Shown piece after piece: positions 53,152 to 62,082 of a DNA stretch of 64,000 bases. Within the stretch, counting starts at the first letter, position 1. Each line of letters begins with the position of its first letter. Source of the stretch: Bacteroidetes bacterium GWF2_40_14. GTDB lineage: Bacteria; Bacteroidota; Bacteroidia; Bacteroidales; UBA932. The stretch spans positions 62,001 to 126,000 of the forward strand of contig MEOK01000034.1 of assembly GCA_001769195.1 (NCBI GenBank), read 5' to 3'. The notes under the pieces are model-generated. The model was not told where the DNA came from and did no database searches. It saw nothing but the letters and a program-made list of their open reading frames with translations. Both the position numbers and the translations under genes were made by a program.

Positions 53152-53200
53152 ACTATTGCCTATTGCCTAATGCCTAATGCCTATTGCCTATTGCCTATTA
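53152..53200 (+). repeat. Heptamer tandem array at the end of the AOR gene
   Basis: About seven 7-bp units (TTGCCTA/ATGCCTA), the same unit as at 21909-22106. The array runs through the AOR stop codon (53181-53183) and encodes its last five residues, IGNRQ. Confidence 0.9.
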
Positions 53201-55337
53201 CCTCAATCAATTCAGGCAAATCCATCCCGATGTTTTTCAGATGCTCCACAGTTGGAACACCGTTTTTGTTCCATCCGCGACGCTTGTAGACGGCATCCAG
53301 GAGCTTCTCGTACTGATCTTCGCGATACTCCCTCACCTTGGACATTTTCTCCTCCAGAGTCATCTTTGAAGGGTCCATCCCTATGATCTCCGTTAATTGC
53401 TTGTCATACCTCTCCTGACGGCTTAGGTACTCCTCTTTGGTCACAGGGCCGGCGGCGCGGTAAGGTTGCTTGTCTTGTTCGCGGGTACCGAAGCCCATTC
53501 GGATGTTGAATATCTTCTGGAAGTTGTAGACCCTTTCCGACTGGCGGATCATCTCCTCCTTGTCGAACTCCCTTCCTGTAACGGCCTTGAATATTGTAAC
53601 ATAATTGTCAACATGCTCTGGCACCTTGTTAGGTTCAGCATACTTTGAATTGTCGGCAGGCTCCACATCGTTCCAGCAAAGCTTGCAGAAACCGGCAAGG
53701 CCAAACCATGTGCGGAAGTAAGGGAAGTAGTGAAGGGCCTCTGCCTTGTTCTCAAACGTAGGAATCATGTTGTTCACCATGTCCATGAATATGAGCCATG
53801 CCTCATCATGCTGAGGTCCCTTGTTAGTCATTGCGTAACCACCCTGTTGTGCAAGGGACTCTTTTGAAAGGTACATTGAGTATTCCAGACCTTTGTTTTC
53901 CATGCCTATGTCGTTCATGAAATTAATGTCTCCCCACCCATTGGCGGCGAACATCTCTTTTTGCTTGCGCACTCCAAGACCGGCAATAAGACCAAAACCT
54001 TCGCCTCTGGCCATTTGATGAAGAAGTTCAAGGGCAGAATCTGCATTACCCCAGCTGATATCTATGCCGCCTGTCCTTTCCAGATTCAGGATTCCATTGT
54101 CCCAGCACTCCATGAGGAAGCCCACTACATTGCCCCATGTTATTGTGCAGACTCCGTATGTGTCGCAGTAGAAGTTAAGTTCAATAATATCCCTTGGGTC
54201 AAAAACCGCAATATTGGAACCAAGTGCCGCGGCATTCTCATATTCAGGTCCGTCCACAATAACTTTTGATCCTTTATATGGCCCTGTACGTAGTTCGAAG
54301 TTGTCCACCCCTTTTGCACATGACATGTTGCAACCTATCCAGCAACCATCGGGAACTCCTTGTGTGAAGTAGCTTTTCCATACCTCCTGGTCAATCTTTG
54401 GACAATCCTTATGGTCGCCAAATTTGAAGTTCATAACCGGCAGAATATCATATTTTTCCAGAACTCCCATAAGGTGTGCGGTTCCTACTTTTCTCATCTG
54501 ACATTGAATATCGTCCAGTTCACGCATCTCCCTATTGAACCTTTTTCCCCGCTCCTGAATGGCCGGCAGGTCAACTACGTTATTTATGTTACCGGTTACC
54601 CGTGGCACTTTTGCAACAATTGCCCGTACATTCTTGTGACGCATAAGTGTACCAAGTCCACCGCGGCCTGCCTGCTTCAGCCTTACCTTGCCTCGTTTAA
54701 GATCATAAAATGTGAAGTTGAGCATGCCAATAAGTGAGTGTTCTGCAGCCTTGCCGGATGCAACCACTGAGACGTTGATTTTGTCTTTTTCACTGTCGGC
54801 AAACATATCCAGAAGCTCTTCTCCCAAAAGGTGAGAGTCGTAACTCAGTTCCTGCGGGGCCTCAAATATCTCTACAACATTATCAACTGCATTAATATAG
54901 ACAATTACATCCTTTTCTGAATTTCCCTGAAGTTCAAATGCATCAAAACCTGCAATCTTAAGATGGGGGCCAAAGTGACCGCCTACATTACTATCAATTA
55001 TTCTCTCTGTCTGAGGAGAGAGAGCAACCACAATGCATTTTCCTGATCCTGAATACTGAGTTATTCCGCAACATGGACCGCCTGAAATCACGATCTCGTT
55101 TTCCGGATCCCTCCATTTTGTTTCTGGTGTTATTGCGTCCCAGAGCATTCTGAGCCCGTAGCCTTTTCCACCTATGAACTTCTCTTTGGTTTCAGGGGCA
55201 ATTTCTCTTATCTCCACTTTATTTGTCCCTACATTCACATAAAGGCTCTGATCGCTGTAGCCTTTATCCATTGGTTTCCATTTGTAAGGGAAGGAGGTAA
55301 TGAGTTTTCTTCTGTTTTTGATATCCTGATAGTTCAT
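53181..55337 (-). CDS. aor: Tungsten-containing aldehyde:ferredoxin oxidoreductase
   Basis: 718 aa, cytoplasmic. The N-terminal domain contains FIGGKGYGLRMLWDAI and GPCCGITQYSGSGKCIVVALSP. The 4Fe-4S cluster ligands are C332-x3-C336-x3-C340 (GCWIGCNMSC) and C554 in CKLCWND, which matches the AOR family pattern. These enzymes oxidise aldehydes to carboxylic acids with ferredoxin as acceptor, using a tungsten or molybdenum bis-pterin cofactor. Divergent thiF/thiS-type genes start 66 bp away, and a tungstate-type binding protein follows further on. It is longer than typical AOR (about 600 aa), partly from an N-terminal extension. Confidence 0.92.
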   Translation of the reverse strand: MNYQDIKNRRKLITSFPYKWKPMDKGYSDQSLYVNVGTNKVEIREIAPETKEKFIGGKGYGLRMLWDAITPETKWRDPENEIVISGGPCCGITQYSGSGKCIVVALSPQTERIIDSNVGGHFGPHLKIAGFDAFELQGNSEKDVIVYINAVDNVVEIFEAPQELSYDSHLLGEELLDMFADSEKDKINVSVVASGKAAEHSLIGMLNFTFYDLKRGKVRLKQAGRGGLGTLMRHKNVRAIVAKVPRVTGNINNVVDLPAIQERGKRFNREMRELDDIQCQMRKVGTAHLMGVLEKYDILPVMNFKFGDHKDCPKIDQEVWKSYFTQGVPDGCWIGCNMSCAKGVDNFELRTGPYKGSKVIVDGPEYENAAALGSNIAVFDPRDIIELNFYCDTYGVCTITWGNVVGFLMECWDNGILNLERTGGIDISWGNADSALELLHQMARGEGFGLIAGLGVRKQKEMFAANGWGDINFMNDIGMENKGLEYSMYLSKESLAQQGGYAMTNKGPQHDEAWLIFMDMVNNMIPTFENKAEALHYFPYFRTWFGLAGFCKLCWNDVEPADNSKYAEPNKVPEHVDNYVTIFKAVTGREFDKEEMIRQSERVYNFQKIFNIRMGFGTREQDKQPYRAAGPVTKEEYLSRQERYDKQLTEIIGMDPSKMTLEEKMSKVREYREDQYEKLLDAVYKRRGWNKNGVPTVEHLKNIGMDLPELIEVIGNRQ

Positions 55338-55403
55338 CTGTTTTTTTTTGTTTTACAAATATTTGGTAAATTTACAAAAATTGTAACCAAAACAACCTGT
55401 ACA

Positions 55404-56000
55404 ATGCCAACTTTTAACCAAATCAGATCTGTTTTGTCACAAAAAACAGTAGGAATAGCCGGGGCAGGTGGTCTTGGCTCAAATTGTGCTGCTGCTCTTT
55501 TAAGAAGCGGAGTCGGCAAGCTTATTATTGCAGATTACGATGTGGTAAGCGAGCCAAATTTAAACAGACAATTTTATTTTCGTGACCAGATTGGGCAGAA
55601 GAAGGTGTTCGCGCTGGCAGATAATCTGGCAAGGATTGAACCGGAAGATTGTGTACAGGTTCATGACACGAAAATTACGGAAGATAATATATCTCTTATA
55701 TACTCTACCTGCGATGTTGTTGTAGAGGCATTTGACGAGGCTTCTGAAAAGGAGATGTTCATTAATTACATGCTCACCCATTTTCCTGATAAACCACTTG
55801 TTGCCGGATCTGGTATGGCTGGATGGGGGAGGCTGGAGCTGCTTAAGAGCGACAATTCCGGCAATCTGTACATCTGTGGCGACGAAGAGAGTGAAGTTTC
55901 GGAAAACAACCCTCCGTTGGCACCAAGGGTTGGCATTGTCTCAAACATGCAGGCCGACAAGGTGCTGGAACTACTGCTCGAAAGGAAAAAACTCCATTGA
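55404..56000 (+). CDS. ThiF/MoeB-family activating enzyme (ThiF family 2)
   Basis: 198 aa, shorter than ThiF or MoeB (about 250). The nucleotide-binding loop is GIAGAGGLGSN (17-27), and the Asp/Arg region is IADYDVVSEPNLNRQFYF (46-63). It lacks the zinc CxxC pairs. It should adenylate the C-terminal GG of a ubiquitin-like sulfur carrier, which is the next gene. Next to an AOR this pair more likely serves tungstopterin or molybdopterin sulfuration than thiamine; no thiG, thiH or thiE gene is present. The last codons form the terminator stem at 55986-56008. Confidence 0.85.
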   Translation: MPTFNQIRSVLSQKTVGIAGAGGLGSNCAAALLRSGVGKLIIADYDVVSEPNLNRQFYFRDQIGQKKVFALADNLARIEPEDCVQVHDTKITEDNISLIYSTCDVVVEAFDEASEKEMFINYMLTHFPDKPLVAGSGMAGWGRLELLKSDNSGNLYICGDEESEVSENNPPLAPRVGIVSNMQADKVLELLLERKKLH

Positions 56001-56008
56001 AGTTTTTT
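55986..56008 (+). terminator. Intrinsic terminator overlapping the end of thiF
   Basis: AAAAAACT pairs perfectly with AGTTTTTT around CCATTGA. The stem includes the thiF stop codon region. A near copy (ACTCCATTGGAGT within A/T runs) lies at 56100-56125, directly before the next gene. Confidence 0.65.
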
Positions 56009-56128
56009 GTAAATATCATTCAATCAGTTACATATAAGAAGAGTTTCTTAAAATACCCCACAGAAATATCGCGTATAAATCAGTAAATCAAATAAATACA
56101 AAAAACTCCATTGGAGTAATTTTTTCGT

Positions 56129-56332
56129 ATGCAAATAATATTAAACAACAGGTCAGAAACTTTTAAAGGACAGGAACTCACTGTTTCAGAAATAATGGAG
56201 TTGAAATCATTCAGGTTCAAAATGCTAGTTGTAAGACTGAACGACCAGCTGGTTAAAAAAGAGGATTATGCCACAACGATTGTGAAGGAGGGAGATGACC
56301 TTAAGATTATACACCTGGTAAGCGGCGGCTAG
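56129..56332 (+). CDS. ThiS/MoaD-type sulfur carrier ending in GG
   Basis: 67 aa, beta-grasp size. It ends in VSGG, the thiocarboxylated Gly-Gly tail. The start MQIILNNRSETF and the motif VVRLNDQLVKKEDYATTIVKEGDDLKIIHLV in overview are ThiS-like. It carries sulfur for thiazole or for the dithiolene of molybdopterin. A hairpin copy of the thiF terminator sits 4 bp before the ATG, so translation signals are poor and the expression may be special. It overlaps the DAHP gene by 4 bp at the 3' end. Confidence 0.85.
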   Translation: MQIILNNRSETFKGQELTVSEIMELKSFRFKMLVVRLNDQLVKKEDYATTIVKEGDDLKIIHLVSGG

Positions 56333-57393
56333 CCCTTATTGAAAATCTCCAGCTGCTGTCTTACTGATTCCTCGTGGATTGCCTCCAGTATCTGCCTTAC
56401 AAACTCCTCATCCATTTCCAGCCCCGGTGCCTGGGAGACTCTCTCTGTAACCAGATGCTCGTAACGTTTAGGCTGCAACACCGGCATACTGTGCTGCTTT
56501 TTGTAGCGGCCAATTTCTCTGGCAATTGACATTCTTTTTGAGAGCAAATCAAGCAGTCTTTGGTCGAGCTCGTCAATCTCTCTTCTGAGTTCGTAGAGCG
56601 ATTCAGAATCATCAGTAGTCTCGCGGATAATTATTGCTTTGAGAATTGTATGCAGGAGTTCCGGTGTTATCTGCTGCTCCTTGTCACTCAGCGCAATAGC
56701 AGGATTGCAATGACTTTCTATCATCAGCCCGTCAAAACCAAGATCCATCGCCTGCTGCGAAAGGGGATATATAAGTTCCGACCTTCCTCCTATATGGCTA
56801 GGGTCACAAAGCAAAGTGAGAGAGGGTAGCCTTCTTTTCAACTCTATAGGTATATGCCACTGGGGCAGGTTCCTGAAGAGTCCCTTTTCGTATGAGCCAA
56901 AACCTCTATGAACAGCTGCAATATGTTTTATTCCACTATTTTGAAGGCGTTCCACTGCGCCAATCCAAAGCTCAATATCTGGATTTACAGGGTTCTTTAC
57001 AAGTACCCTTACCTCAGAACCACTCAGTGCCTCTGCAATCTCCTGTACAGCAAATGGGTTACCGGTTGTGCGTGCCCCTATCCAGAGGATATCCACGCCT
57101 GCTTTAAGGGCCGCCTTTACATGCCCGGAGTTTGCAACCTCAGTAGAGGTATACATTCCGGTCTCTCTTTTAACTTTTGCCAGCCACTTCAACCCCTCTT
57201 CACCAACACCTTCGAACCCTCCGGGTTTTGTCCTCGGTTTCCATACGCCGGCCCGGAATATCCTGATTCCGCAGGCAGACAACTCTCTTGCAGTGGTCAT
57301 TACCTGCTCCTCTGTCTCTGCACTGCAAGGGCCGGCCAGAACGAGGGGGCGACTCTTTTCAATATCTGGAAACGATAGAGGTGATATGTCCAT
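56329..57393 (-). CDS. DAHP synthase/chorismate mutase fusion
   Basis: 354 aa. Residues 1-265 are a type I DAHP synthase (LVLAGPCSAETEEQ, FRAGVWKPRTKPGGFEGVG, CDPSHIGGRSELIYPLSQQAMDLGFDGLMIESH in overview). Residues about 270-354 are a type II (AroQ) chorismate mutase (LRREIDELDQRLLDLLSKRMSIAREIG). The fusion joins the first shikimate step to the first phenylalanine/tyrosine step. The mutase part often acts as a feedback sensor. It stands between thiS and the tungsten-binding genes but is on the other strand and is not part of the tungsten set. Confidence 0.93.
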   Translation of the reverse strand: MDISPLSFPDIEKSRPLVLAGPCSAETEEQVMTTARELSACGIRIFRAGVWKPRTKPGGFEGVGEEGLKWLAKVKRETGMYTSTEVANSGHVKAALKAGVDILWIGARTTGNPFAVQEIAEALSGSEVRVLVKNPVNPDIELWIGAVERLQNSGIKHIAAVHRGFGSYEKGLFRNLPQWHIPIELKRRLPSLTLLCDPSHIGGRSELIYPLSQQAMDLGFDGLMIESHCNPAIALSDKEQQITPELLHTILKAIIIRETTDDSESLYELRREIDELDQRLLDLLSKRMSIAREIGRYKKQHSMPVLQPKRYEHLVTERVSQAPGLEMDEEFVRQILEAIHEESVRQQLEIFNKG

Positions 57394-57466
57394 GTAGCTA
57401 ACTTTAAGGTGGTAAATTTAACCGAAAGGTAGTGTTTTTTGCTATCTTCGCTAAAATTTTTTTACA

Positions 57467-58546
57467 ATGAAATTCAGGTCTTTCATTATCATTATAACGT
57501 TATCTATAGCATTGGCAGGATGTAAATATCTGCATATCGACGGCTTCAGCGGTTCAACACTTTTGTGGGAGTCAGGTGCAAACAACTATTTCAATCAGGA
57601 AAAGGCCACGTCACTCGATACTCCTGAAGAGATTCTTATAACAGGAGAGGTAGAGAAGGATGTCAGGATTTCGCTCAGGAATATTCCATGGCACTCGGTT
57701 GCAGTAAAGGAGGCAAGAATGAGCGGAGACACTCTCAGGTTTGAGGGGGCCTTCAGGTACGATGGCTATGCGCTTTGCGATATCCTGAGCTCAGTAAAGA
57801 TTGACAAAAGCAGCAAAAACGACTTTTATCCGCCGGTTGACCTGTATATTGAGGTCTATAACGACAAGGGTGAGTTTGCAACATTCAGCTGGGGCGAAAT
57901 CTTCTACTCATCAAACACATACCAGATATTAATTGCCAAAAATGTAACCAGGGTAATTCCGGGCAAAACCAAGGAGATGTGGAAGCTTTCGCAGCATTCA
58001 AGGCTGGTTGCAGGGACAGATAGATTAAGTGTCAGGAACATATCTCAACCAACGAAAATTGTTATAAAAACCCTTGCTGGAAAGTTTGTTGTAAACAGGA
58101 GACCGGAGAAGTTCTATGCAGAGAAGCTGGAGCTTATCGGACCGGATTCTACATATGCACAACTTGAGAAGTTGCCGGAAAATCTTGCGGCTGTAAGCTT
58201 TGAATCAACCTATTACGGACACAGTATGGGATTTAAGGGAGAAAAAGTATTTACAGGGGTGTTGCTCGGAGATGTGATGAAGCCTTATTTTCCTAAAGAT
58301 GAAGCTTCTCTCAGAGAGGGCCTGGTCTGTATAGAAGGGGTTGACGGCTACAGGGCATCATTCTCACTTTCGGAACTTACAAACAGGAACGACCAGCGTG
58401 ACCCATTGCTGATGTTTGGAATGAGCAAGAGCAAAGCAGATGACAAAAACAAAGACAAGGGACACGAAACATTTTCGATTTATGCCGGTTGTGACATGTT
58501 CGCCGACAGGTCCATCAAGGGATTGAATAAAATAACTCTATATTAA
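57467..58546 (+). CDS. Lipoprotein of unknown function next to the tungstate-binding protein
   Basis: 359 aa. The lipobox is ALAGC (Cys19). The mature part seems to hold two similar domains (about 40-190 and 200-355). Each has a region like the sulfite oxidase/molybdopterin-binding-domain family: ILITGEVEKDVRISLRNIPWHSV with YDGYALCDILSSV in the first, and GVLLGDVMKPYFP with EGVDGYRASFSLSEL in the second. No conserved cofactor Cys is visible. The DGY and GDVMKPY patterns are suggestive only. It starts the pair with the tungstate-binding gene (23-bp gap). Confidence 0.5.
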   Translation: MKFRSFIIIITLSIALAGCKYLHIDGFSGSTLLWESGANNYFNQEKATSLDTPEEILITGEVEKDVRISLRNIPWHSVAVKEARMSGDTLRFEGAFRYDGYALCDILSSVKIDKSSKNDFYPPVDLYIEVYNDKGEFATFSWGEIFYSSNTYQILIAKNVTRVIPGKTKEMWKLSQHSRLVAGTDRLSVRNISQPTKIVIKTLAGKFVVNRRPEKFYAEKLELIGPDSTYAQLEKLPENLAAVSFESTYYGHSMGFKGEKVFTGVLLGDVMKPYFPKDEASLREGLVCIEGVDGYRASFSLSELTNRNDQRDPLLMFGMSKSKADDKNKDKGHETFSIYAGCDMFADRSIKGLNKITLY

Positions 58547-58569
58547 TAGTTTGGAAAATTGATGCAACC

Positions 58570-59511
58570 ATGAAAAGAGTCTTTATTGTATCACTTTTAG
58601 TAATATTTGTTGTAATGAACAGTTCATGCGGACGAAAAAAAACTGCAGTGACAGATTCCACGCTCAGCGGTAACCTTATAATATTTCATGCAGGATCGCT
58701 CTCTATGCCGTTTAAGGAAATTGCAGATTCATTTATGCAGATACATCCCAATGTCAAGGTATTATGCGAGGCATCAGGGAGTATAGATGCTGCAAGAAAG
58801 ATTACTGAACTCAAAAGGGATTGTGATATTATGGCATCGGCCGACTATTCAATAATCGACAAGCTGCTGGTTCCTCAATATGCCTCCAGGAATATCCAAT
58901 TTGCCTCAAACGAGATGGCTATAGTTTACACGGAGCGGTCGGCCTATGCAGACAAAATCGACACCAACAACTGGGCCGGAATCCTTCTACGTGACGATGT
59001 TATAATTGGCAGGGCAGATCCCGATGCGGACCCCTGCGGATACAGATCGGTACTTACCTTAAAGTTGGCAGAAAAAAACTTTGCCGCCAAAGGAACAGGC
59101 AGCATTGGTCTGGCAGAAAAGATAATGGCAAAGGACAACCGGTTCATGAGGCCAAAGGAGGTAGATCTTCTGGCACTTCTGGATACAAGAACAGTAGACT
59201 ATATTTTTCTATACAGGTCAGTAGCGGTGCAGCATAACCTTAAATACCTGACTCTCCCTCGTAGTATTAATCTTGGGGACCCCACCCTGAACCCATACTA
59301 TGCAGAAGTTCAGACAGATGTGAGAGGGTCAAAGCCCGGTGAAAAACTTACCATGAAAGGTGAAGCCATGGTTTATGGGGTTACGGTTCTGGATAAGGCG
59401 CCAAACAGAGCTGCGGCAGAGGCCTTTATCGAATACCTGCTGTCCGAAGAGGGAGGCAGGAAAATCCTTAAAGCAATGGGGCAGGAGCCGGTCTACTCTT
59501 CCGGAATATAG
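58570..59511 (+). CDS. wtpA: WtpA/ModA-type tungstate/molybdate-binding lipoprotein
   Basis: 313 aa. The lipobox is MNSSC (Cys20). The family pattern is seen in LIIFHAGSLSMPFKEIADSFMQIHPNVKVLCEASGS and in NEMAIVYTERS and GRADPDADPCGYRSVL, typical of the WtpA group of oxyanion-binding proteins. Such proteins capture tungstate or molybdate and pass it to the WtpB/WtpC or similar ABC permease. No permease or ATPase gene follows: the strand flips to the nitroreductase gene, whose end overlaps by 19 bp. So the permease must be elsewhere. Confidence 0.85.
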   Translation: MKRVFIVSLLVIFVVMNSSCGRKKTAVTDSTLSGNLIIFHAGSLSMPFKEIADSFMQIHPNVKVLCEASGSIDAARKITELKRDCDIMASADYSIIDKLLVPQYASRNIQFASNEMAIVYTERSAYADKIDTNNWAGILLRDDVIIGRADPDADPCGYRSVLTLKLAEKNFAAKGTGSIGLAEKIMAKDNRFMRPKEVDLLALLDTRTVDYIFLYRSVAVQHNLKYLTLPRSINLGDPTLNPYYAEVQTDVRGSKPGEKLTMKGEAMVYGVTVLDKAPNRAAAEAFIEYLLSEEGGRKILKAMGQEPVYSSGI

Positions 59512-60897: not shown

Positions 60898-62082
60898 ATG
60901 AAAAAAAATAAATTTTCAATACTGACAATAATTTTGTTGGTATTGGCTTTCAACAATGGTTGCGGTAAGAAAGAGCCTGCAATAGTAACCGGGGCCGACC
61001 AGACAGACAGGTACCTTCCGTTACTGGCCGACAGGAATGTAGCCATGACAATAAATCAGACATCTACTATCGGCAACCAGCTTAGTCTTGACAGTTTGTT
61101 GTTGCTGGGCATTAATGTAGTTAAGGGATTCGGGGCCGAGCATGGCTTCAGGGGAGGAAACAGCTATGATTCTATTGATATTAAATCAGGCGTTCCTACC
61201 ATCTCTTTATACAGAGGCAAGAATAAACCGACTAAAGAAGATCTGGAAGGAGTGGACATTATGATCTTTGACATGCAGGATGTGGGTACCCGTTTTTATA
61301 CCTATCTGGCTACATTGCACTACATTATGGAAGCATGTGCAGAGAACGATGTAGAACTGATTATTCTCGACAGACCAAATCCTAATGATTCATATGTAGA
61401 CGGACCTGTTTTGGAGGAGCAGTACAAATCATTTGTAGGGCTCGATCCCATTCCGATTCTGCACGGAATGACATTCGGCGAATATGCACAGATGCTAAAT
61501 GGTGAAGGATGGCTCGAAAACGGGGTTAAATGTAAGCTCAATATAATTACAATGTTGAATTACAAACATGGAAAACCTTATCTGGTACCAATACCTCCTT
61601 CGCCCAATTTAAATACTCAACAGTCAATCTTGCTATATCCGTCACTTTGTCTGTTCGAAGGAACAGTAATCAGCCAGGGGCGGGGCACCCAGCCTCTTAT
61701 TGCATTCACGGTGCTTGGAAATAAAGATTTAAAAGGCAAGTACCCATTCTCTTTCAATGTAATAAGCCGTCAGCGCGATACCATCCCACAAACTACTACC
61801 GAATGTTTTGGGCTGGATTTACGTAATTACGATACCGGCATATTCAAAAAAACCGGACGGATAAATTTAAGCTGGCTAATTGAATTGTACAACGCTTACC
61901 CAGATAAAGACAAGTTCTTTAGAAAAGGAGCGAACGACTCATACTATTTTGACAAGCTTGCTGGCACAAACAAGCTCAGAGAACAAATTATAGCAGGTAA
62001 GACAGAACAGGAAATCCGCGACAGCTGGGAACCCGCACTTTCGCAGTTCAAAGAGATACGGAAGAAGTACTTAATTTACTAA
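60898..62082 (+). CDS. namZ: DUF1343 exo-beta-N-acetylmuramidase, NamZ-like
   Basis: 394 aa. The lipobox is FNNGC (Cys22). The DUF1343 signature is seen in NVAMTINQTSTIG, VKGFGAEHGFRGG, DIMIFDMQDVGTRFYTYLATLHYIMEA in overview, and PTPPSPNLN-like VPIPPSPNLNTQQ. NamZ enzymes remove N-acetylmuramic acid from the non-reducing end of peptidoglycan fragments during cell-wall recycling. The last three codons and stop lie in an octamer array (62072-62151). Confidence 0.9.
   Translation: MKKNKFSILTIILLVLAFNNGCGKKEPAIVTGADQTDRYLPLLADRNVAMTINQTSTIGNQLSLDSLLLLGINVVKGFGAEHGFRGGNSYDSIDIKSGVPTISLYRGKNKPTKEDLEGVDIMIFDMQDVGTRFYTYLATLHYIMEACAENDVELIILDRPNPNDSYVDGPVLEEQYKSFVGLDPIPILHGMTFGEYAQMLNGEGWLENGVKCKLNIITMLNYKHGKPYLVPIPPSPNLNTQQSILLYPSLCLFEGTVISQGRGTQPLIAFTVLGNKDLKGKYPFSFNVISRQRDTIPQTTTECFGLDLRNYDTGIFKKTGRINLSWLIELYNAYPDKDKFFRKGANDSYYFDKLAGTNKLREQIIAGKTEQEIRDSWEPALSQFKEIRKKYLIY

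Follow-up and report, generated by a model that had tools for sequence, protein, structure and literature searches.

Small sulfur carriers encoded next to tungsten enzymes have been described before, and statements made here and below about the papers cited refer to the passages of them that were covered. Iyer, Burroughs and Aravind reported in 2006 that a small carrier lies strictly beside the aldehyde oxidoreductase (AOR) gene, often with a MoeB-type enzyme, and proposed that the AOR-linked carrier makes molybdopterin for the tungsten cofactor (PMC1779556). Similarly, Putumbaka et al. (2026) described a ThiS-like protein, WorX, and thiF by a lone WorL, with a predicted role in pterin biosynthesis (PMC13328260). 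The idea of a carrier dedicated to AOR is therefore already published in these two studies. In T. kodakarensis, deletion of ubiquitin-like proteins (Ubls) affects tungsten-cofactor enzymes (PMC11323500). In Geobacter metallireducens (PMC2700814) and Dehalobacter (PMC4751268) moaE is missing and other moa genes are present together with mosC/MOSC genes, and the authors of the Dehalobacter study remarked that molybdopterin synthase activity may reside in MOSC proteins. Elsewhere these proteins are called molybdoenzymes (PMC6147048) or sulfurase-like, and beyond the Dehalobacter remark we found no paper proposing MOSC for MoaE in the literature searched, outside which lie most subscription journals.

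Results

Organization of the AOR locus

The window analysed here is a 64,000-nucleotide stretch of contig MEOK01000034.1 of Bacteroidetes bacterium GWF2_40_14, in which an earlier note, made from the sequence alone, had described a compact tungsten module; open reading frames and family matches place all five of its components where that note had put them. The AOR large subunit (AOR/WorL, 718 residues) is encoded on the reverse strand at 53181-55337. Across a divergent intergenic region of 66 bp (55338-55403) starts the forward-strand gene for a 198-residue E1-like adenylyltransferase of the ThiF/MoeB type (55404-56000), followed on the same strand by genes for a 67-residue ThiS-like sulfur carrier of the WorX type (56129-56332), a lipoprotein modelled with two tandem pterin-binding-fold domains (57467-58546) and the 313-residue tungstate-binding protein WtpA (58570-59511), which lies 2.2 kb beyond the carrier gene. 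A DAHP synthase/chorismate mutase gene on the reverse strand (56329-57393) sits between the carrier and lipoprotein genes; it is probably not a member of the module, because it is missing from the same position in four relatives (L017, L018, L019 and L031), in which the lipoprotein gene follows the carrier gene directly. A sigma-70-like match (9/12) begins at 55352, inside the aor-thiF gap, and a promoter and terminator scan of the region gave counts near those of shuffles (17 sites versus 11.8 +/- 3.8). An upstream cofactor riboswitch was discarded, no Rfam match scoring above the gathering score between 50000 and 62000.

The AOR matches AFOR_N (PF02730, 157.6 bits) and AFOR_C (PF01314, 316.1 bits), both above cut-off, and is the sole AOR-family match in a profile search of the host genome. 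On an alignment with Pyrococcus furiosus AOR (1AOR), along which positions were counted by eye, four cysteines, chosen as those we take to be the 4Fe-4S ligands, are conserved, as the earlier note had read them, with the first pair spaced CX3C where P. furiosus AOR has CX2C. Also kept are T243, E313, Y427 and H448 (PfAOR numbering), the four residues listed in PMC13328260. The gene is predicted to encode the large subunit of a tungsten-type aldehyde oxidoreductase, with tungsten and a bis-pterin as its expected content. A ferredoxin-like small Fe-S subunit was sought beside the gene and in the rest of the window, and none was found; a ferredoxin-like gene lies upstream of AOR at seven of nine non-Bacteroidota loci (L022, L023, L024, L025, L027, L030 and L039).

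The ThiF and carrier pair

The ThiF protein matches PF00899 (114.3 bits) and TIGR02354 (179.6, cut-off 152.2), and the carrier, the only ThiS-family match in a profile search of the host genome, matches ThiS PF02597 (42.3 bits) and TIGR01683 (48.6, cut-off 37.45). The two NCBIfam equivalog models, each matched above cut-off, name the pair thiamine ThiS/ThiF, a label that is probably misleading for an AOR carrier pair. The carrier ends in IIHLVSGG, the Gly-Gly terminus that MoaD-type carriers require. As the earlier note had pointed out, no thiamine gene adjoins the pair at the locus; nor did profile searches find a ThiG match anywhere in the host genome.

That note had suggested trees and a comparison of neighbourhoods, and both favour its assignment. 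In the carrier tree, based on only 71 alignment columns, the AOR-linked sequences, 34 rows that span five phyla, lie on one side of a branch with 100/100 support, and 13 thiamine-locus ThiS and three MoaD lie on the other, one thiamine-locus row (L135) grouping with MoaD. The tree omits L073, L146 and L151 as repeats, and its AOR group takes in L078 and L152, where the carrier is not directly beside AOR. The C-terminal motif H[LM][IVL][SA]GG is present in 33 of the 34 AOR-linked carriers and in none of the 13 thiamine-locus ThiS or the three MoaD. All 27 AOR-linked rows of the ThiF tree, which omits repeats or near-copies (L003, L073 and L146), frames below 150 residues and the later loci L153-L172, likewise fall on one side of a 100/100 branch, with bootstrap values not fully settled. 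The thiamine rows of both trees come from Bacteroidales thiamine loci only, with no clostridial thiamine ThiF among them. A ThiF homologue in the moa operon of genome G089 (L083) matches the AOR-type profile at 5e-55; in the tree its branch is very long and is not part of the AOR clade.

Thirty-eight AOR loci were fetched, 29 from Bacteroidota, L032 and L033 being two halves from one bin. Among the 24 Bacteroidota loci that include DNA upstream of AOR, ThiF is found there in every one and the carrier in all but L035, where the contig ends (24 and 23 loci); the adjacency is thus not a matter of chance. We also surveyed 99 Bacteroidales genomes, host included and most of them MAGs, of which 34 encode AOR. 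A ThiS-family carrier of any kind is present in 33 of the 34 (the other, G002, runs into a contig end), full-length ThiG in only three, and 29 have the carrier with neither MoaE nor full-length ThiG. These counts drop ThiS matches within frames of 744-804 residues, presumably TGS-type domains, which removes eight genomes of 65, and accept ThiG only at E <1e-100 (19 genomes), weaker matches such as a 64-residue fragment in G072 being discarded. The combination that would have told against the earlier note, a pair that groups firmly with thiamine ThiS/ThiF and is kept in genomes lacking AOR, was not seen within the sample, and a thiamine function was rejected on the missing ThiG match and both trees.

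MOSC domains in the place of MoaE

The earlier note had taken the dithiolene sulfur of the cofactor to come from a MoaD-type carrier, which implies a MoaD-MoaE synthase, and in that wording it finds no support here. Profile searches gave no MoaE candidate in the host genome, even at first look, and no match in any of the 25 sampled genomes of its genus (host and 24 others) or in the 16 genomes reached through AOR loci, at least one of which is probably also among the 99 (L021/G058, with identical ThiF). With neither ThiG nor MoaE found, the carrier is left in the host without either textbook acceptor. MoaE is lacking in 32 of the 34 AOR-encoding Bacteroidales, and MoaC is present in 31.

In gene content, MOSC replaces MoaE. 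Across the 99 Bacteroidales MoaE was found in four genomes, MoaC in 35, MoeA in 37 and MOSC over cut-off in 30, to which a fusion in G060 is added; MOSC occurs in 31 of the 32 genomes with MoaC and no MoaE, in none of the three with both, and over cut-off in none of the 64 without MoaC. In 249 Bacillota genomes the corresponding figures are 143 of 145 (MoaC, no MoaE) and 23 of 29 (both), while the 75 without MoaC include three with MOSC and none with MoaE; Fisher tests on these counts ignore shared ancestry. The MOSC domain of MoaE-less genomes is Cys-rich and adjoins, or is fused to, MogA, as in all 15 Bacillota moa loci that were read of the 143, hand-picked from the best-scoring MoaC list among MOSC-containing, MoaE-less genomes. 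In contrast, three MoaE-containing operons (L084, L108 and L112) have MoaC-MogA without MOSC. The MoaC region was read in five of the six Bacillota with MoaC and MoaE but no MOSC; L108 and L112 are two of these, and in the other three MoaC was seen without MogA. It should be emphasized, however, that MOSC and MoaE are not mutually exclusive in Bacillota, in which divergent MoaE forms are matched at E of about 1e-6 to 1e-10 and MOSC sometimes lies beside MoaC despite a divergent MoaE (G124, G215, G228, G255 and G262).

Some genomes depart from the pattern. In G083 MoaC is accompanied by neither MoaE nor MOSC, and profiles built in this study gave the same result on its moa contig. Two genomes with AOR and carrier, G069 (no MoaC, MOSC or MoeA match) and G101 (Sedimentibacter, assigned to Bacillota by its locus label; no MoaC or MOSC match), have a cofactor source that the MOSC route leaves unexplained. 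The MOSC of G060 was missed by the genome-wide search and scored above cut-off when scanned as a protein, so other absences may likewise be false.

In the host, MoaA, MoaC, a MOSC-MogA fusion (L075, 10697-11629) and a permease/ATPase pair are encoded on contig C14, and MoeA on contig C34, 26 kb past the window end. A Bacillota homologue of the fusion is found at L105, 8475-9401, and the MOSC cysteines include three conserved ones, in the motifs CHG..C and C.MP. The MoaA of the lineage matches Radical_SAM over cut-off and Mob_synth_C at 35.0 and 36.0, just under the cut-off of 37.4. The dedicated supply chain envisaged in the earlier note is therefore incomplete at the locus, these other genes lying elsewhere; what finds support is the link of the pair with AOR.

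Lipoprotein and tungstate uptake

The lipoprotein has a lipobox with Cys19 (by eye), and its AlphaFold2 model (pLDDT 80.4, pTM 0.80) shows domains at residues of about 54-201 and 209-359. VIA-align scored the model at Z 10.5 against PruR (7kos) and Z 12.8 against sulfite oxidase (3hbg), which suggests two tandem domains of the sulfite-oxidase/PruR pterin-binding fold, with pterin binding as a prediction from the model; Pfam PF00174 gave 15.2 bits, below its cut-off of 24. In two relatives (L005 and L021) the lipoprotein is fused to a WtpA-type domain. WtpA itself matches TIGR03730 (300.7, cut-off 242.75) and falls just short of the PRK04168 cut-off (342.3 versus 355). No permease or ATPase gene adjoins wtpA at the locus. 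An orphan WtpA was set aside, as the ABC permease and ATPase genes on C14 (L075, 15167-16602; PF00528 and PF00005 over cut-off), which share that contig with moaA, moaC and MOSC-mogA, probably complete a tungstate transporter with it.

Discussion

We favour, as the probable account, an AOR-dedicated sulfur pair that works alongside a MoaE-free pathway running through MOSC-MogA. ThiF would adenylate the C-terminal glycine of the carrier, which would be turned into a thiocarboxylate whose sulfur may be used to make or finish the tungstopterin of AOR. WtpA and the pterin-fold lipoprotein would capture tungstate outside the membrane. MoaA and MoaC would make cPMP, the Cys-rich MOSC domain fused to MogA would most likely turn it into molybdopterin without MoaE, and MogA and MoeA would then adenylate molybdopterin and insert tungsten. 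We infer every catalytic step of this scheme, and also the carrier's target, which may be the MOSC domain or a later, AOR-bound cofactor. The parts differ in strength: the pair very probably works for the cofactor of AOR and not for thiamine, and it is likely, though well short of firm, that MOSC takes over the role of MoaE.

It could be argued that the carrier is simply the MoaD of this lineage, feeding a MOSC-type molybdopterin synthase for all of the cofactor and lying near AOR as its main user. Consistent with this, the carrier is the genome's only ThiS-family match, no second AOR-family enzyme was matched there, genome G044 (L073) unites the pair with moeA-moaA-moaC-MOSC/mogA genes in one cluster, and the ThiF homologue of G089 lies immediately upstream of moeA. 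In contrast, G060, which has moaA, moaC, moeA, MOSC-mogA and a MobA-like gene near NarG-, NarH- and NarI-like genes, gave no AOR, MoaE or carrier match in genome profile searches; G079 retains the AOR-linked pair despite having MoaD and MoaE together; and the AOR-type carrier is absent from all 15 Bacillota MOSC loci read, with a profile that may miss distant MoaDs. Thus the carrier seems to track AOR and not the MOSC route, and its role as the general MoaD is possible but doubtful. On balance we lean, if only slightly, towards an AOR-specific step for the carrier over a role as the general sulfur donor of molybdopterin synthase. A carrier-free MOSC route, as in G060, would nevertheless leave the carrier without a known acceptor, which counts against the explanation that we prefer.

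Alternatively, the MOSC protein of the moa operon may be a cofactor carrier, a sulfurase or a small molybdoenzyme, with a diverged MoaE making molybdopterin. MOSC proteins have been classed as molybdoenzymes (PMC6147048), divergent MoaE forms do occur in Bacillota, and the G060 MOSC illustrates that a genome search can miss a domain. Such a MoaE would, however, have escaped detection in the host, throughout the genus sample and in every AOR-locus genome, and the three MoaE-containing genomes without MOSC in the moa operon also speak against it; we regard a hidden MoaE as conceivable and give it qualified credence. By analogy with T. kodakarensis, in which Ubls both conjugate to proteins and are needed for tungsten-cofactor enzymes (PMC11323500), the carrier might serve AOR not as a sulfur donor but as a ubiquitin-like modifier or activity tag, which we think improbable. 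That a thiamine ThiS/ThiF system landed beside AOR is scarcely credible, the two equivalog matches notwithstanding, as the host has no ThiG match, both trees set the pair apart from homologues at thiamine loci within its own order, and AOR-encoding genomes have the carrier in 33 of 34 cases and full-length ThiG in three.

Returning to the MOSC route, we tentatively extend it, with less confidence than for the host, to many anaerobic Bacillota and Bacteroidales with a molybdenum or tungsten cofactor, which may use a second, non-homologous molybdopterin synthase, a Cys-rich MOSC domain at MogA with no need of MoaD/MoaE, AOR-type enzymes adding their own carrier pair for an enzyme-specific sulfur step. 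Should this hold, many anaerobes would have a second way through a core cofactor pathway, and some 'MOSC molybdoenzymes' would be biosynthetic proteins. The proposal bears on the question, raised in 2009, of how Geobacter metallireducens obtains its nitrate reductase cofactor without moaE (PMC2700814), and it makes of the passing Dehalobacter suggestion (PMC4751268) a counted, testable hypothesis. A warning also follows for annotation, in which NCBIfam models mark the AOR carrier pair as thiamine genes.

The AOR-carrier module was known; here its carrier has no textbook acceptor in the host, and following that gap exposed the MoaE-for-MOSC pattern in two phyla. What is new is thus the genomic context, with no MoaE or ThiG match and a Cys-rich MOSC at MogA in the place of MoaE. 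As in the clusters of PMC1779556, a carrier and an E1-type gene lie beside AOR, but the host carrier is of the ThiS-like kind, its gene is divergent from that of AOR, and its lineage gave no MoaE match, the absence of MoaE not being treated in the passages of that paper covered. Like the Class I tungsten oxidoreductases of PMC13328260, the locus has a ThiS-like carrier and thiF beside a lone WorL. The host AOR, in contrast, is at most about 26% identical to the plasmid-borne WORs, including that of Cetobacterium somerae (one of two Cetobacterium WORs was matched, which one not being told apart), and by sequence probably belongs to another clade than the Class I enzymes. MoaD, WtpA and 'Bacteroid' are absent from the main text of that paper as covered. 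The lipoprotein model repeats twice the fold of the periplasmic pterin-binding protein PruR and of sulfite oxidase; unlike PruR, the host protein is a lipoprotein with two tandem domains, tied to WtpA and with PF00174 below cut-off. Finally, where PMC2700814 and PMC4751268 offer remarks on single organisms in the passages covered, this study provides counts over 99 Bacteroidales and 249 Bacillota genomes.

Conservation of the AOR module

The genes for the AOR (53181-55337, reverse strand), ThiF (55404-56000, forward), ThiS-like carrier (56129-56332, forward), lipoprotein (57467-58546, forward) and WtpA (58570-59511, forward) lie where an earlier note had placed them, and Pfam and NCBIfam profiles bear out the identities it assigned. 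Judged by alignment with 1AOR, the AOR retains the four Fe-S cysteines and the four active-site residues given for aldehyde-oxidising members. The named relatives with an AOR locus are MAGs of Bacteroidales, among them HGW-Bacteroidetes and UBA12406 Rikenellaceae, and the AOR-ThiF-carrier arrangement is real and conserved; among the 24 of 29 Bacteroidota loci for which DNA upstream of AOR was available, ThiF was present in all 24 and the carrier in 23. At nine loci from other groups (Bacillota, Spirochaetota, Aminicenantes, Acidobacteria and one deltaproteobacterial MAG) an AOR-type carrier occurred in seven and an AOR-type ThiF in one. The carrier gene and that for DAHP synthase/chorismate mutase are convergent, overlapping by four bases (56329-56332), and a NamZ-type exo-beta-N-acetylmuramidase gene (60898-62082) lies downstream of the module.

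The lipoprotein had no Pfam match above cut-off, and its model (18 sequences, pLDDT 80.4, pTM 0.80) displays two tandem domains of the sulfite-oxidase/PruR pterin-binding fold. At two Bacteroidales loci (L005 4544-6439 and L021 2011-3912; 631 and 633 aa) the lipoprotein is fused to a WtpA-type solute-binding domain, and thus the lipoprotein and WtpA probably cooperate outside the inner membrane. Beside the lipoprotein gene of four relatives is a LysR-type HTH protein of 125-127 aa (L002 6537-6920, L003 353-736, L026 6544-6921 and L037 6545-6922; Pfam HTH_1 in L026), which by eye appears ModE-like; this cluster has no member in the window.

The ThiF/carrier pair and thiamine

Although NCBIfam labels the pair thiaminic, trees set both proteins apart from thiamine homologues. 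In the carrier tree (50 rows, resting on just 71 alignment columns) a 100/100 branch splits 34 AOR-linked rows from 13 thiamine-locus carriers and three MoaD, with one thiamine row grouping with MoaD. The carrier C-terminus H[LM][IVL][SA]GG is found in 33 of the 34 AOR-linked rows and in none of the 13 thiamine or three MoaD rows. Similarly, all 27 AOR-linked rows of the ThiF tree (40 rows, its thiamine loci all from Bacteroidales) lie opposite ten thiamine-locus rows and three others across a 100/100 branch, in a tree whose bootstrap is unsettled and which contains some long branches. A ThiF homologue upstream of moeA in genome G089 scores 5e-55 with the AOR-type profile, yet falls outside the AOR side on a long branch. 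The host genome has a single ThiS-family match and no ThiG match. Among the 99 Bacteroidales genomes sampled, 33 of the 34 with AOR contain a ThiS-family carrier, as do seven of the 47 without an AOR, full ThiG or MoaE match; in one of these seven (G020) an AOR is in fact present, cut at a contig end.

Absence of MoaE and the MOSC pattern

The earlier note proposed that the pair supplies sulfur to the AOR cofactor by a mechanism that requires both MoaD and MoaE. MoaE had no match in any of the 25 genomes of the host's genus, the host included, nor in 16 genomes reached through AOR loci (of uncertain completeness and partly overlapping the 99). Across the 99 Bacteroidales genomes MoaE occurs in four, MoaC in 35 and MoeA in 37; the corresponding figures for the 34 AOR-containing genomes are two, 31 and 32. 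Several relatives carry an operon of moeA, moaA, moaC and a MOSC-mogA fusion, which in G044 (L073) lies within ~10 kb of AOR, ThiF, ThiS, lipoprotein, WtpA and a permease/ATPase pair. In the host, moaA, moaC and MOSC-mogA are together on contig C14, where the permease/ATPase genes follow at a distance of 4 kb; moeA is found on the contig of the window, C34. G069 and the Sedimentibacter genome G101 contain AOR and an AOR-type carrier (L162-L164; L024) with no MoaC or MOSC match, nor, in G069, a MoeA match; contamination, missed genes and cofactor scavenging are candidate reasons. MoaA of the host lineage is short (~266-289 aa versus ~324-346 in Bacillota loci) and falls just below the Pfam Mob_synth_C cut-off (L073 8800-9627, L075 9295-10095 and relatives).

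MOSC exceeded the cut-off in 30 of the 99 Bacteroidales genomes, every one with MoaC. The fusion in G060 passed the cut-off as a scanned protein and was missed by the genome search, and thus other absences may also be false. With G060 included, MOSC is present in 31 of 32 genomes with MoaC and without MoaE (the exception is G083), in none of the three with both, and, above cut-off, in none of the 64 without MoaC, of which G075 has two sub-cut-off matches. MoaC is present in 174 of 249 Bacillota genomes. MOSC accompanies it in 143 of the 145 lacking MoaE (all but G192 and G347, and in G347 the MoaC match is only weak); the 75 without MoaC contain MOSC in three and MoaE in none. It should be emphasized, however, that 23 of the 29 Bacillota genomes with MoaC and MoaE also have MOSC, and thus the two are not mutually exclusive in this phylum. 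About half of these MoaE matches (14 of 29) score weakly, and MOSC adjoins MoaC in no fewer than five of the genomes with a weak match. A divergent MoaE-like family (L113-L126; E ~1e-6 to 1e-10, 136-194 aa) occurs in 14 of the 249 genomes, some also with an operon-type MOSC; one member (L117) is ~4 kb from an AOR and another (L115) adjoins a MoaA homologue.

MOSC adjoins or is fused to MogA in all 15 hand-picked moa loci from MoaE-lacking Bacillota; the MoaE-containing G079, G153 and G315 have MoaC and MogA in the operon with no MOSC between. The operon MOSC is cysteine-rich. Its CHG..C and C.MP motifs contain three cysteines, every one of which is kept in 29 of 30 rows counted; a separate alignment comprised 17 rows. 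When MOSC-MogA was modelled, its MOSC part proved similar to YuaD (1oru; Z 18.4), and its remaining part to Cnx1G, a domain that binds molybdopterin (Z 23.8). That MOSC is fused to the enzyme acting next in the pathway would be consistent with a role for MOSC in making molybdopterin.

Discussion

The observations in the earlier note hold, and its interpretation is borne out in part and had largely been published. AOR-linked MoaD/MoeB clusters were described in 2006 and assigned to tungsten cofactor synthesis (PMC1779556), and WorX/thiF was described in 2026 (PMC13328260); the module is thus a variation on a published theme. What gives the findings their value is the lack of MoaE and the distribution of MOSC. 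The lack of moaE in G. metallireducens has been recorded as unexplained (PMC2700814), MOSC has been suggested as a MoaE substitute in Dehalobacter (PMC4751268), and the legend to a figure published in 2026 names a MOSC gene among those of the Dehalogenimonas cofactor cluster (PMC13390414); the literature searched offered no precedent for the MOSC-for-MoaE count.

It could be argued that the carrier is simply the MoaD, which is the simpler reading and comes close behind an AOR-specific use of its sulfur. G060 (L085, L173) has moaA, moaC, moeA, MOSC-mogA and a MobA-like gene ~5 kb from NarI-, NarH- and NarG-like genes, with no AOR, MoaE or ThiS-family match in the genome, and G079 has MoaD and MoaE (L092) while also keeping the AOR-linked carrier and ThiF (L153). 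Together with the MoaD absence published for Dehalobacter (PMC4751268), these two informative genomes suggest that the carrier tracks AOR rather than the type of molybdopterin synthase, and thus AOR-specific use of its sulfur is favoured. AorD/AorE of Aromatoleum are described as putative, MoaD-like maturation factors (PMC6365974). The tracking of AOR by the carrier agrees with the report that in T. kodakarensis particular Ubls matter to particular tungsten enzymes (PMC11323500).
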